DNA from: Desulfurispora thermophila DSM 16022
GTDB taxonomy: Bacteria; Bacillota; Desulfotomaculia; Desulfotomaculales; Desulfurisporaceae
Assembly: GCF_000376385.1 (NCBI RefSeq)
Contig: NZ_AQWN01000005.1
Coordinates: forward strand, 186,001 to 250,000
Length of the DNA stretch: 64,000 nt
Direction of reading: 5' to 3'
Each line of letters starts with the position of its first letter. Positions within the stretch are counted from its first letter, which is position 1. Below are positions 32,810 through 52,582 of this stretch, piece after piece. The notes beneath the pieces were generated by a model. The model had not been told where the DNA came from, did not search any database, and saw nothing but the letters and a program-made list of their open reading frames with translations. The position numbers and the translations under genes were made by a program.

Positions 32810-33598
32810 ATGATGAGTAATATAGTGGGCCGTGAAAATGAGTTATTCACGTTTGCGTATTGTCCAAGGTTTAAAAAGCAGTTAAGTAAATTAGCGAGTT
32901 TAGCACAGAAAGAAGTTTGGGACTTTAAGATTGAGTCGGAACAGGAGCCTAAGTTTGAGATTTTGGATAATTATATAAAACACACTTTCAAACGAATTAA
33001 ATACGAGTATGATTTGCTACCAGAGGAGAAAAAGCACACAAAGTTGTGTATAGAGAAAGATTATGCTTGCTTTAATACAGGTTTATACACAGAAAATTAT
33101 GAGCAAATATTTGCATTTTTCCAAAAGAATCAGATAACTGATAAACAGGAATGGTGTCTCATAGGTTTTTTTAAGGAAAGTAGTGACGAATTGGTAAAGT
33201 TTTCAAAACTGCCCCAGAGAGCGTCGTATTTTCAGGATATCTCGGACTTGATCTTCGATTATAGGTGTGAGGTACGAATAGATTTAAATCACATTTTGGA
33301 TGAAAATAGAGATAGACTTCCAGAAAGTCTTCGCGATCTTTCAACTCTTACTGGGGCGGTTGAAATAGCTAAAAAAAGAGTAGCTGCTAATTATAAGTTA
33401 GCAATACCACAATATTATGATGGTAGAATCCAGCTTTTAATACCTCTTTGTTCATCTAATAATGAATGTGTTGCCTTAGTAATTCGAAAAGAAAGCGAAT
33501 TTTATGTAGGGAAAACAGTATTGAAAGTTGAATGGGCTTATAATAATGCAAGGCTTATTGCAAGACCGGAAAGTGAATGGTTAAAGCCCATGTGTTAA
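32810..33598 (+). CDS. DUF3825-like protein
   Basis: About 262 residues. CFNTGLYTENYE is the recognisable DUF3825 motif, with a C-terminal WAYNNARLIARPESEWL. DUF3825 domains are found in prophages and defence contexts; the function is unknown. It is the AT-richest gene in the window and lies 61 bp after herA, with its own GGATGGTGATAT ribosome site. It may be the fourth member of the defence-like operon or an independent arrival. Confidence 0.65.
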   Translation: MMSNIVGRENELFTFAYCPRFKKQLSKLASLAQKEVWDFKIESEQEPKFEILDNYIKHTFKRIKYEYDLLPEEKKHTKLCIEKDYACFNTGLYTENYEQIFAFFQKNQITDKQEWCLIGFFKESSDELVKFSKLPQRASYFQDISDLIFDYRCEVRIDLNHILDENRDRLPESLRDLSTLTGAVEIAKKRVAANYKLAIPQYYDGRIQLLIPLCSSNNECVALVIRKESEFYVGKTVLKVEWAYNNARLIARPESEWLKPMC

Positions 33599-48419: not shown

Positions 48420-49385
48420 TTGAAAATTCCAGTCGTACATCTTGATGGGACACCGCTCATGCCCTGTTCACCGGCTAAAGCCCGGAAACTGCTCAGGGCA
48501 GGCGCCGCACAAAAGAAATGGACCAGGGCCGGGGTGTTTTACATTCAACTAACTACCCCGACTGGAAAAAACACACAACCATTAATAATGGGCATTGACC
48601 CTGGAGCCAAATACGACGGAATATGCATTGCCAGCAGACGGCAGATGCAGATATCGGGAATGCTTGTAGTAAAAAACCGCATAGCCAAAAAGATGGAACA
48701 ACGCAGGAATATGCGCAGAGCCCGGAGATGGCGAAATTGTCGGAGGCGACCAGAGCGATTTAATAACAGGACAAGGCCTGAAGGGTGGCTGCCGCCGTCA
48801 ATCAAAGCCAGAGTAGATACCCGCATCGCACTTATCGACAGCCTGCTATCAATCTACCCGGTAACAGAATTTGCAGTAGAAGACACCAGGATTGACGGCA
48901 ATAAACTCAAAAACAAAGACGGCAGGCAATACCTGACCTGGGTCATGACCGGCAAAACCAGGCTGTACAACCACTTAAAAGAAAAAGGTGGACTGACCCT
49001 GTACTTGCCGGAGCAAACAGTCCGGGCACGGGAAGTGTGCGGCCTTATCAAAACACCCGGGAAAGGCGAGCTGGTATTTACCTCGCAGGCAGTTGACGCC
49101 CTGGCTTTGTGCTGGCTAAAAGCAGGGACAGAAAACTTGTCTGTAATCAGCTTTATGGCCTGGCGCAGGCCGGAAATATCCAGGAGACAACTGCACCGGT
49201 TTGAGCCGGAGAAGGGTGGAAAAAGAAAGCCCTACGGTGGCAGTCGGGTTCTGGGTATACGAAAGAACACAGTTGTCTGGTATAGAGGAAAACTTTACCG
49301 GACAGGAGGTACCACCAAAGGCAGATTGAGCCTTCACTCTTACATAGATCGTAAAAAGCTACTCACCCCTAAGGGGCAGTTGTAC
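48209..49385 (+). mobile_element. IsrB-type (IscB-like) transposon of the IS200/IS605 group
   Basis: Left end: 21-bp hairpin CCCC...GGGG at 48209-48229, same as the solo end at 44811. Right end: CCCCTAAGGGG palindrome at 49366-49376, inside the fused frame. It holds no transposase and only the RuvC protein gene and its RNA region, as usual for non-autonomous IscB/IsrB units. Inserted between virB4 and a radical SAM gene. The exact right boundary is inferred. Confidence 0.7.
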
Positions 49386-50192
49386 AAATCTATAGGTGAT
49401 GATGATACAGTATATTTTGATTGTATGCCGGAAGTGGCGCGAAAAACATTAATCAACTCCACAAAAGTAGAATATTGTACCTACGCTCTAAATCACATTG
49501 AAGGCTGCGCTCATGGCTGCAAATTCCCCTGCTATGCTATGATGATGGCCAAGAGGTTTGGCAAAATCAAAACATACGAAGACTGGCTGCGTCCCAAGAA
49601 GATAAGCAATATATTTGCCATATTAGAAAAAGAGATTGAAAAATACGCAGGCAAAGTTAAATGCGTCCACCTTTCGTTTATGACTGACCCGTTCATGTAC
49701 AAGCACCCCATGCTTAACAGGTATTCCCTGAACGTAATTTACCGTCTCAACAAGCACGGAATATATGTCACAACACTGACCAAGGGCATATGTCCTAAAG
49801 AATTGGCAGACACAAAATATTTTGATACCAGAAACGAATACGGAATAACCCTGGTTTCGCTCGATGAAAAATTTCGGAAAGAATTTGAACCATTTGCTGC
49901 TCCCTACAAAGAGAGGATCGCAGCGCTTAAATACCTGCATGACTGCGGCTGCAAAACATGGGTGAGCATGGAGCCATATCCTACCCCAAATTTAATCGCT
50001 CAGGACATAAGGTTGATCTTGCAGGAAATAGCATTTGTAGACAAAATTGTTTTTGGTAAACTGAACTACAATGTAAATTCTGAGAAATTCCAGAACAACA
50101 CTGACTTCTACCAAGAGCAGGCAGAAGTTGTGATCAACTTTTGCGAACAGAACGGGATTGAGTATCACATCAAAGAGGGTACAATATGTTAG
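48420..50192 (+). CDS. IsrB-like RuvC nuclease fused in frame to a radical SAM protein
   Basis: 590 residues. Residues 1-~320 are IsrB-like: PLMP motif (TPLMPCSPAKARKLLR), RuvC-I GIDPGAK (Asp60), Arg-rich bridge helix (~90-112), RuvC-II FAVEDTRID (Glu154), no HNH insertion, RuvC-III SQAVDALAL (Asp226), and a C-terminal PYGGSRVLG...GRLSLH region. Residues ~336-590 are an SPL-like radical SAM protein with CAHGCKFPC (a CxxxCxxxC spacing, not the usual CxxxCxxC) followed by TDPFMYKH and WVSMEPYPTP. The junction at about 316-335 falls at the transposon's right end. Met336 (49425) could start the radical SAM part alone, but no ribosome site is seen there. Confidence 0.85.
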   Translation: MKIPVVHLDGTPLMPCSPAKARKLLRAGAAQKKWTRAGVFYIQLTTPTGKNTQPLIMGIDPGAKYDGICIASRRQMQISGMLVVKNRIAKKMEQRRNMRRARRWRNCRRRPERFNNRTRPEGWLPPSIKARVDTRIALIDSLLSIYPVTEFAVEDTRIDGNKLKNKDGRQYLTWVMTGKTRLYNHLKEKGGLTLYLPEQTVRAREVCGLIKTPGKGELVFTSQAVDALALCWLKAGTENLSVISFMAWRRPEISRRQLHRFEPEKGGKRKPYGGSRVLGIRKNTVVWYRGKLYRTGGTTKGRLSLHSYIDRKKLLTPKGQLYKSIGDDDTVYFDCMPEVARKTLINSTKVEYCTYALNHIEGCAHGCKFPCYAMMMAKRFGKIKTYEDWLRPKKISNIFAILEKEIEKYAGKVKCVHLSFMTDPFMYKHPMLNRYSLNVIYRLNKHGIYVTTLTKGICPKELADTKYFDTRNEYGITLVSLDEKFRKEFEPFAAPYKERIAALKYLHDCGCKTWVSMEPYPTPNLIAQDIRLILQEIAFVDKIVFGKLNYNVNSEKFQNNTDFYQEQAEVVINFCEQNGIEYHIKEGTIC

Positions 50193-50252: not shown

Positions 50253-50576
50253 GTGGCAATGCAAGCAGAGGAAAGAGTGAACCTGGATGCCATATGCCTT
50301 GCCGCCGTAAAGAGATGGGGGCCGGCGCAACTCATTATCCTGCTGGAAGAGTTGGCCGAACTGCAGCAGTCGCTGGTGAAATATTTGCGCTACGGCAACC
50401 AGTACCTGGATGACATAGCGGAAGAAGTAGCAGATGTGCAAATCATGCTTCACCAGTTAACACTCATGCTGAACCTGTCTGACCGCATTTCTGAAATGCG
50501 TGAAGAAAAACTGAAGAAGCTGAAAGCCATTCTAGACAATGATCACGATAGCACTATGGGTGGTATTCATGGTTAA
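50253..50576 (+). CDS. MazG-like NTP pyrophosphohydrolase
   Basis: About 107 residues. EELAELQQSLVKYLRYG and EEVADVQIMLHQL give the ExxE...ExxD metal-binding pattern of all-alpha NTP pyrophosphohydrolases. Such enzymes clean dNTP pools and are common in phages and ICEs. GTG start at 50253 with GGGGGTGAG upstream. Its 3' end overlaps the next gene by 8 bp. Confidence 0.8.
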   Translation: MAMQAEERVNLDAICLAAVKRWGPAQLIILLEELAELQQSLVKYLRYGNQYLDDIAEEVADVQIMLHQLTLMLNLSDRISEMREEKLKKLKAILDNDHDSTMGGIHG

Positions 50577-51312
50577 CCTACATCCCCAGTACGAAACAAT
50601 ATACCTGCTCTCGCAAATACAAAATGTCAGAGGCCGGCGCTACAATATTGGCCTGCACCAGGATGAGCAGGTCATCAAAGGGTACTGCTACGAAGAGACT
50701 ACCGCCGGCTTTTTTCGGGCCTGGGTGCTCAACGAAATGCATGTAGCAATACTCAAAGCAGCCAACCAGTTAATAGTAGCCGGGGCAAACATGCTCGCAC
50801 AAAAAACAGGCCTTGAACATGGCGAAGTAACTGAAATCCTGGAGGAGTGTGTGACGCATGGCATACTTTGCGAAAACCAGGTGCGTTTTCGCAGCGCAAA
50901 TGACGGTGAAAACATCTTCGAAGCAAAAACATGGTCTTTGTATATAGTAGACACCGGCGGCATCCATGCCCTCAAAGACGCCGGCATACCCTATAGACGA
51001 CTGCCATACACAACAAGCATTGACCAGCGCCTGCGCATCTACCGGCGGAACATTTACTTGGTCAAGGAAAACGCAGGTGAGCAAGAGAAAAATATCATCT
51101 TCCTGGAAGACATGCTGGACGGAAACGGCAATCTGGGCACACCACTTTTGCTGGAAACGCTGAAACTGGAAATTCCCACGGTAGTGCTCTACGACAGCAC
51201 AATAGCCAGGATCCTTGACGTACAAAAAGCCGTTGGATATTTAATCGAACAGCTACGCTCACACAATCTACAGGTATATGATATTGCGGAAAACATATCA
51301 AAAACCACTTGA
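50569..51312 (+). CDS. hypothetical protein
   Basis: About 247 residues; not recognised. N-terminal half suggests a winged helix (NQLIVAGANMLAQKTGLEHG, EILEECVTHGIL), followed by an alpha/beta part. Start ATG 50569 overlaps the MazG stop, so translation is coupled. It is the last gene before a 1.2-kb gene-free stretch. Confidence 0.5.
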   Translation: MVNLHPQYETIYLLSQIQNVRGRRYNIGLHQDEQVIKGYCYEETTAGFFRAWVLNEMHVAILKAANQLIVAGANMLAQKTGLEHGEVTEILEECVTHGILCENQVRFRSANDGENIFEAKTWSLYIVDTGGIHALKDAGIPYRRLPYTTSIDQRLRIYRRNIYLVKENAGEQEKNIIFLEDMLDGNGNLGTPLLLETLKLEIPTVVLYDSTIARILDVQKAVGYLIEQLRSHNLQVYDIAENISKTT

Positions 51313-51344
51313 CAGTATAACAGAACGCATATACCATAATTACC

Positions 51345-51370
51345 AAAGCGGTACAGGCCGCTTTAAATTA
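51345..51370 (+). terminator. weak terminator-like hairpin
   Basis: AAAGCGG/CCGCTTT stem followed by TAAATTA; the T run is poor. Confidence 0.35.
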
Positions 51371-51439
51371 GACAAAAATCTTGTGTGCATAAACAACACA
51401 ACTAACCAGATGCCGACTTCTATGTGTTGCGACTCCAGC

Positions 51440-52582
51440 AACAAGTAGAAGGTGTTGCAGGGCGTGATACCCTAGAGTATGTCTCCGACACAAGCGATGA
51501 GCGGGAAGCGTAATCCCTACACCTGAGTCAAAGCGATGAGCAAGACTCATTCCGCGAAGCGATGAGCAAGCGGAACGCCTGAAAGTAGGCGCAAAGAGAG
51601 GATGTAGGACGTAATACCCTGGGAGGCATATTCGACATAAGCGATGAGCGGGAAGCGTTGCTCAGCCTGCGACAGCCTGGACCAAGAGCGATGAGCGCGG
51701 TCCTTCCTCGCGAAGCGATGAGCAAGTGGGGCACCCTGGACCCGGGTGTTAGAAGCTGCGGAAAGGCTTTTGCAGAATGCGGGCACGATACCCTAGGACG
51801 CAAGTCCGACACAGGCGTTGAGCGGGAAGTGTAATAATTAAATATCCGCAACTGCAAAAAAACCGGTGGGTGAAAAAGGTTTCGTTCCTGCCGCAGCGAG
51901 AAAATGGGGCAGTGCATATTCGAAGCGTTGAGCAAGGATGTGCCGGTCTGGCCGACCAAACAAAGCCCGCTGACCCTTAGAAAAGCGTGGGCAGGCCGGA
52001 GGCAGCCTGCGGGAGACACGCGGTCAGTGTGAAACGAGAACGGCCCGAAGCCGGTACAAATCAGGTGCGGCAGGCCTGGTACCGGCCGACTCGAATAGCT
52101 GCCGTACCCCCGATAGGGTTGCAAGCTTTGGTCGTCAACATTGGCGACCCACAAGGCAGGTGGGGCTTGCAAAACTGGGGGGCTCCCACAGAGAGGGGAG
52201 TACTGCCTGTCACACGTTCGGGGCTCCCCGGCCCAGCAGCAGAAAGGGGAGGCTGCTCCACCCACCAGAGCAGTCTATCAGCAGGGTGACCTGCTGAAGG
52301 AGAAAGAAAGCCCCTTTTGCGGGGCGAGAAAACTAATGAAAAAACCCTTCTAAACAGGGTGGAAATCAATCAAGTATAAACATTCGTCCCATAGGGGATG
52401 GATGGAAAACCCGAACGCACAACTCCCTAAAATGGGATAAAACAACAAAAACAGAAAAGTGCAGGCCTCCGGCAATCAGCCGGTTAATCAGGTGTGCACC
52501 GAGAAAGAAACAAAGAGCATTCGCTAAGAGTATTCTGGAAAAGACAGGAATAACTCTTAGTAATGCTCTTTTGCGCTTTTTT
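51440..52582 (+). ncRNA. candidate large structured RNA with repeated loop motif
   Basis: No gene is supported from 51,313 to 52,658. Eight copies of GCGATGAGC/GCGTTGAGC (51494, 51533, 51559, 51641, 51688, 51715, 51815, 51925) each sit in a hairpin loop whose stem differs: TGAGTC/GACTCA, TTCCGC/GCGGAA, GGACC/GGTCC, CCTCGC/GTGGGG, CATATTC/GGATGTG and others. A ~57-nt unit (ATACCCTxGG...CGACA...GCGGGAAG) repeats at 51461, 51607 and 51781. Downstream lie TTGCAAGC/GCTTGCAA closing a branched junction, CCGGTAC/GTACCGG, and a GTGA-capped CAGCAGG/CCTGCTG hairpin, ending in a strong terminator. Frames seen in it are artefacts of the repeats. The 5' end is not known. Confidence 0.65.
52513..52582 (+). 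terminator. long terminator closing the structured RNA region
   Basis: AGAGCATT/AATGCTCT, CTAAGAG/CTCTTAG and TATTC/GAATA stack into one hairpin, followed by T-rich sequence. Confidence 0.75.

Follow-up and report, generated by a model that had tools for sequence, protein, structure and literature searches.

The window, a 64,000-nucleotide stretch of Desulfurispora thermophila DNA, contains at positions 51345-52575 what looks, from its sequence, like an independently transcribed, highly structured large non-coding RNA gene of a conjugative element, with its own promoter and terminator. This RNA presents one loop on many hairpins whose stems are unrelated. We consider, with a probability of about one half, that it may be a platform or sponge offering multiple binding sites to a single RNA-binding protein encoded by the element, working in a CsrB-like manner but unrelated to CsrB.

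The RNA unit and its loop array

The features delineated in the window are as follows:

50539..51312, plus strand: gene of a 257-aa winged-helix protein, directly upstream of the RNA
51309..51337, plus strand: promoter TTGACA, 17 nt, TACCAT, overlapping the stop codon of the 257-aa gene
51345..52575, plus strand: structured RNA, a predicted transcript with its start taken from the promoter and its end from the terminator
51461..51516, plus strand: module copy 1, loop GCGATGAGC at 51494-51502
51524..51549, plus strand: hairpin TGAGTC/GACTCA, loop at 51533-51541
51550..51575, plus strand: hairpin TTCCGC/GCGGAA, loop at 51559-51567
51607..51663, plus strand: module copy 2, loop at 51641-51649
51679..51703, plus strand: hairpin GGACC/GGTCC with a short stem, loop at 51688-51696
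51706..51731, plus strand: hairpin CCTCGC/GTGGGG, loop at 51715-51723
51781..51837, plus strand: module copy 3, loop GCGTTGAGC at 51815-51823
51914..51943, plus strand: last array hairpin, GCATATTC/GGATGTGC, loop at 51925-51933
51942..52097, plus strand: conserved 3′ core with helices Ha, Hb, Hc and Hd, matched by covariance model R1
51985..52021, plus strand: hairpin Hc, outer arms GCGTGG/ACACGC, inner arms GCAGG/CCTGC, purine bulge GGGAG; its loop pairs with 52041-52044 (pseudoknot)
52512..52575, plus strand: intrinsic terminator

A sequence-only reading had described a gene-free RNA unit at 51440-52582. Its gene-free character was borne out, none of the ORFs across the stretch giving a Pfam match at E 0.01 (the longest, 245 aa, lies on the opposite strand), but its start was moved about 100 nt upstream, the −35 box lying at 51309. 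The minimum free energy of the window RNA has a z-score of −7.3 relative to dinucleotide shuffles. As far as its sequence tells, it thus combines a long conserved RNA structure with a lack of coding capacity, as expected of a large ornate RNA of a mobile element. The earlier description of such an RNA closed by a terminator is supported by homologues that share promoter, terminator and covariation.

Eight copies of GCGATGAGC/GCGTTGAGC are found within 51494-51933, every one on the plus strand and, as had been claimed, in hairpins. Only one further copy occurs in the 64 kb, for 1.2 expected, and nine copies were reached in none of 100 shuffles. The four 14-nt loops said to sit on unrelated, fully pairing stems are present as described. 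When the 3′ flanks were swapped among the eight loops, equal pairing was obtained in 0.08% of shuffles; over 52 such loops from ten RNAs, the mean stem measures 5.1 bp versus 2.9 bp after swapping (0/2000). The hairpin at 51679-51703 is a further carrier of the loop, beyond those singled out before. The larger repeat unit noticed at 51461, 51607 and 51781 aligns as a triplicated module, which explains the eight loops and the length of 1.2 kb. Since the relatives mostly have five loops in 0.5-0.8 kb, the window copy is an expanded member of the family.

The apical consensus over the family is GC-GNNRA-GC, with GAUGA and GAAGA as the commonest loops and three to eight loops per RNA, five as a rule. 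Loops of the same RNA are homogeneous, with 4.54 of 5 identical versus 3.93 after shuffling, a value reached in 0/5000 shuffles. They change in concert between RNAs, and the stems vary freely. Gene conversion hardly accounts for this uniformity within an RNA, since the flanking stems are unrelated. Shared descent of similar RNAs adds to the likeness, and the sequence comparison shows selection for a single loop type per molecule.

GNRA-like loops are common as plain caps and are also classical elements of RNA-RNA docking. In one relative (G077), hairpins 1-4 end in the tetraloops GUGA, GAGA, GAGA and GAGA, and hairpin 5 retains GAUGA. Such a substitution would be expected if the third base of the pentaloop were extruded from a GNRA fold, and the GNNRA loop probably does adopt a GNRA-like fold of this kind. 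In the GACAA loop of P22 boxB, the looped-out base touches the N peptide (PMC12550061). A K-turn was ruled out, loops such as GAAAA lacking the UGA.

Relatives, covariation and the 3′ core

RNAs with this loop type, designated class 1, amount to 25 in 23 genomes with the window included, that is 24 related RNAs in 22 further genomes. Within the order, 24 RNAs occur in 22 of 113 genomes (G077 being counted by eye), and one more was found outside it, in G478. This spread is a lower bound, because a sample of the phylum was searched and some members, including the window RNA, escape the strict pattern. A blastn search against 100 related genomes matched just the 42-nt core, in three genomes. The core pattern is carried by Desulfotruncus alcoholivorax DSM 16058 and Desulfotruncus arcticus DSM 17038, and also by Peptococcaceae BRH_c4a. 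More relatives were collected through the upstream 257-aa gene, two through the covariance model and the rest through the S1 gene and an array pattern. With the pattern reversed as a control, the order yielded no match and 398 genomes of the phylum a single one. Requiring exact 8-mer arrays proved too strict, nearly all known members being missed, and this detector was set aside.

Several candidates were discarded. A match of covariance model R2 in G319 (E 6e-4) lies inside coding sequence, and the pattern matches in G392 and G493 are short tandem repeats. In IMG/VR, 37 matches to the array pattern were obtained, none with the conserved junction motif, and they were taken as chance matches or tandem repeats; relatives of the 257-aa protein were not found there either. 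Plasmid and phage records contained no similar DNA.

Members share a common layout: promoter, 5′ domain including a hairpin with the loop UGGAAG, loop hairpins, junction GACC...GGGCAA, 3′ core Ha-Hb-Hc-Hd, and an intrinsic terminator that precedes ssb or a toxin-antitoxin type gene. The promoter consists of TTGACA, a spacing of 17-18 nt and a weaker −10 box, and lies about 120-200 nt ahead of the first loop. It is at the expected place in all extracts except four. One of these (L077) begins past the promoter, which is visible in the longer sequence, and another (L083) was cut short from G077, in which the box can also be seen; in the remaining two (L097 and L106, both from G021) the box is absent.

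The sequence-only reading had inferred covariation from stems within the one molecule, and comparison of homologues extends this. We predicted a structure from a single relative (L075) and projected it onto a sequence-only alignment of seven RNAs. Double changes were observed at 34 of 88 pairs, versus 17.1 in shuffled and 8-11 in slid controls. Paired cells amounted to 88.7%, against 81.5% (shuffled) and 39-43% (slid), and the covariation score was 0.357 compared to 0.208 for shuffles. Since related sequences can exceed shuffles through descent, the slid control is the one that matters.

Model R1 was built from five sequences, the window included. In the 3′ core, the arms of Hc, read by eye, are paired in 128 of 130 cells over 13 sequences; as this choice of arms is biased towards pairing, the test on seven RNAs carries the weight. 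The Hc loop pairs with the strand preceding UAAGC/UAACC, in the variants AGGGA/UCCCU, GGAC/GUCC, GGGC/GCCC, GGGU/ACCC, GUGC/GCAC and AGGC/GCCU. Swapping these partners gave an equal match in 0.02% of shuffles, or 0.84% with one RNA per close group; the window pseudoknot itself has 3 bp only. Model R2, built from one subgroup, detects members of two others at E values of 5e-5 to 0.005, which supports common descent.

Genomic setting and further loop classes

Over 26 loci, the usual gene order is topB - 127 aa - TraG/VirD4 - S1 protein - 220-aa winged helix - (257 aa) - RNA - ssb - 88 aa - ardC - radC - DUF3854 - integrase. The RNA thus usually lies between the topB-TraG-S1-wHTH transfer operon and the ssb/ardC/radC genes of conjugative elements. 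The window is an exception: VirB4 and an RRXRR gene are found upstream, and the S1 and 220-aa genes lie on another contig of the same genome (L076). In G047, about 14 kb separate the operon from the RNA. G021, which lacks the 220-aa protein, harbours two copies (L159, L160) with three loops in another kind of element, where a tyrosine recombinase and a 229-aa protein resembling a coiled coil are encoded next to them.

This location, where leading regions begin, raises the possibility that the stretch works as single-stranded DNA during transfer, as an oriT, a single-strand origin or an Frpo-like promoter. In other elements, ssb is preceded by Frpo promoters (PMC11541004), and the window stretch resembles Frpo/ssi in being structured at the start of an ssb region. 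It is, however, several times longer, with its own terminator ahead of ssb. Pointing into the unit, and with terminators standing ahead of ssb, the conserved promoter would probably not drive ssb. G.U cells outnumber A.C cells (40 vs 20) and the plus strand folds better than the minus strand in both close groups, neither being decisive because single-stranded DNA of the same strand would look similar. Altogether we regard a role as single-stranded DNA as improbable.

The RRXRR gene, whose IscB/IsrB-like domain (no HNH seen) is fused to a radical SAM domain, is recorded at 48420-50192 of the window and at 2550-3471 of L076. The second copy shares its first 60 residues and is found where contig C13 of this genome ends, next to S1 and wHTH genes; the gene may therefore be mobile or mark an assembly joint. 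With this gene 1.3 kb upstream, the RNA could be thought of as a guide for its product. However, among the 26 loci the RRXRR query matched the window only, and the Rfam model found no HEARO structure beside the gene; a guide function seems very improbable.

The 257-aa protein is linked to the RNA in 15 genomes. It was dropped as an obligate partner because two element families, f9 and f13, lack its gene but possess the RNA. Among 113 genomes, 22 encode the 220-aa protein, and a class 1 RNA accompanies it in 21 of them; in the 22nd, the locus stops at a contig end. As its gene neighbours the RNA in one operon, linkage may explain this joint occurrence. The structural model of the 220-aa protein shows a winged helix and a second domain, and the closest solved folds, weak matches, are DNA-binding winged helices.

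Two further loop classes were found at the same place. Class 2 loops, on hairpins such as AAAC-UGC-GUUU, occur where the 220-aa gene is missing and a protein of a distant clade is present (G029, G061, G028 and the second element of G024). Class 3 goes with a divergent 220-aa protein (E 1e-28; G015 and the second element of G045) and is a compact stretch with three hairpins around GCUUGCGGGC, known from two sequences (L189, L190) whose MFE fold is not clean. Two group II introns are present in a related element of G015 (L079). We tentatively propose a new class of non-coding RNA with a swappable display: one recognition loop would be carried on a single scaffold by many hairpins, and the loop type (GC-GNNRA-GC, AA-YNSNG-UU or GC-UUGCGG-GC) would be exchanged as a set at the same fixed site of related conjugative elements, in step with a winged-helix protein able to read RNA loops. 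We hold this to be rather less likely than the platform reading itself.

Known RNAs and possible roles of the array

No match was obtained at gathering thresholds when 51345-52575 and the homologous stretches were compared with the 4,227 families of Rfam, and permissive E-values gave nothing credible for the stretch and three relatives. The loop array had not been recognised in the sequence-only reading, and indeed the GOLLD, ROOL, OLE and HEARO models suggested there gave no covariance-model match. We found no description of such an RNA in the open-access literature. Elsewhere in the window, Rfam identified a c-di-GMP-I riboswitch (RF01051, 25553-25640) and a TwoAYGGAY RNA (RF01731, 17477-17635, minus strand). 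ARAGORN reported a tRNA-Tyr with anticodon ata at 33359-33444, inside the ORF 32810-33598; this call is probably false.

The likeness in size and setting to GOLLD and ROOL that had been pointed out holds for the mobile element, the carrier being conjugative instead of a phage. All are ornate non-coding RNAs of 0.6-1.2 kb with pseudoknots, but the window RNA matches neither model and shows one loop on many hairpins. The array principle is known from CsrB. CsrB and RsmZ, which act as sponges, likewise display the same loop on an array of hairpins with variable stems; they have repeated GGA loops, whereas the loop here is GC-GNNRA-GC, alongside a large pseudoknotted core. The boxB hairpins of phages lambda and P22 share GN(N)RA/GNR(N)A pentaloops with it, GAAGA and GAAAA occurring in both, but boxB is a single short hairpin in a message and not an array in a separate RNA. 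Among the large structured RNAs of mobile elements, the RNA represents a new family.

Words complementary to the loops are not in excess in the RNAs (7 vs 11.9 expected), and the window contains no complementary loop sites. Kissing or antisense pairing through the loops is therefore unsupported; probably, the loops contact a protein or take part in three-dimensional docking. The same result, together with the terminator that ends the unit, weighs against a regulatory RNA that would act in cis or through antisense contacts with the element's messages; despite the nearby transfer and establishment genes, we consider this role still less probable than one as single-stranded DNA.

The main rival is an assembly made of RNA only, in which the RNA would form an oligomer, its GNRA-like loops docking into receptors within their own copy or an adjacent one. 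GOLLD and ROOL form RNA-only cages held by A-minor and kissing contacts (PMC12286853). The size, ornate fold, pseudoknot and mobile-element setting of the window RNA resemble theirs, GNRA loops are suited to docking, and no protein partner is obligate, G021 lacking the 220-aa protein. However, no repeated receptor motif was noticed, kissing by base pairs lacks support, and a loop number varying from 3 to 8 is odd for a fixed cage. Such an assembly appears possible, if unlikely.

The platform or sponge reading rests on the presence of one loop per RNA on unrelated stems, from which we infer a single partner that reads the loop, and on the lack of anti-loop excess, which argues that this contact is not made by base pairing. 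The hairpin array would gather or titrate one RNA-binding protein of the element; as first candidate we regard the winged-helix protein of 220 aa encoded in the upstream operon, given its joint occurrence with class 1 RNAs and its absence or divergence where other loop classes occur. Against this reading stand the possible linkage, the G021 copies without this protein, its weak likeness to DNA-binding folds and the use of GNRA-like loops as caps and docking elements. By sequestering or scaffolding the protein, the RNA could set how far the transfer genes are on.

To our knowledge, very few large structured bacterial RNAs have been described, and a role is known for hardly any. For the present RNA, a gene neighbourhood is available along with culturable hosts and a candidate protein partner. 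The same loop on many unrelated stems, replaced as a set, is a natural experiment that allows a direct test of what the large RNAs of mobile elements bind. Should the sponge reading be true, conjugative elements of sulfate reducers and their relatives would control their transfer by a CsrB-like principle that arose independently.
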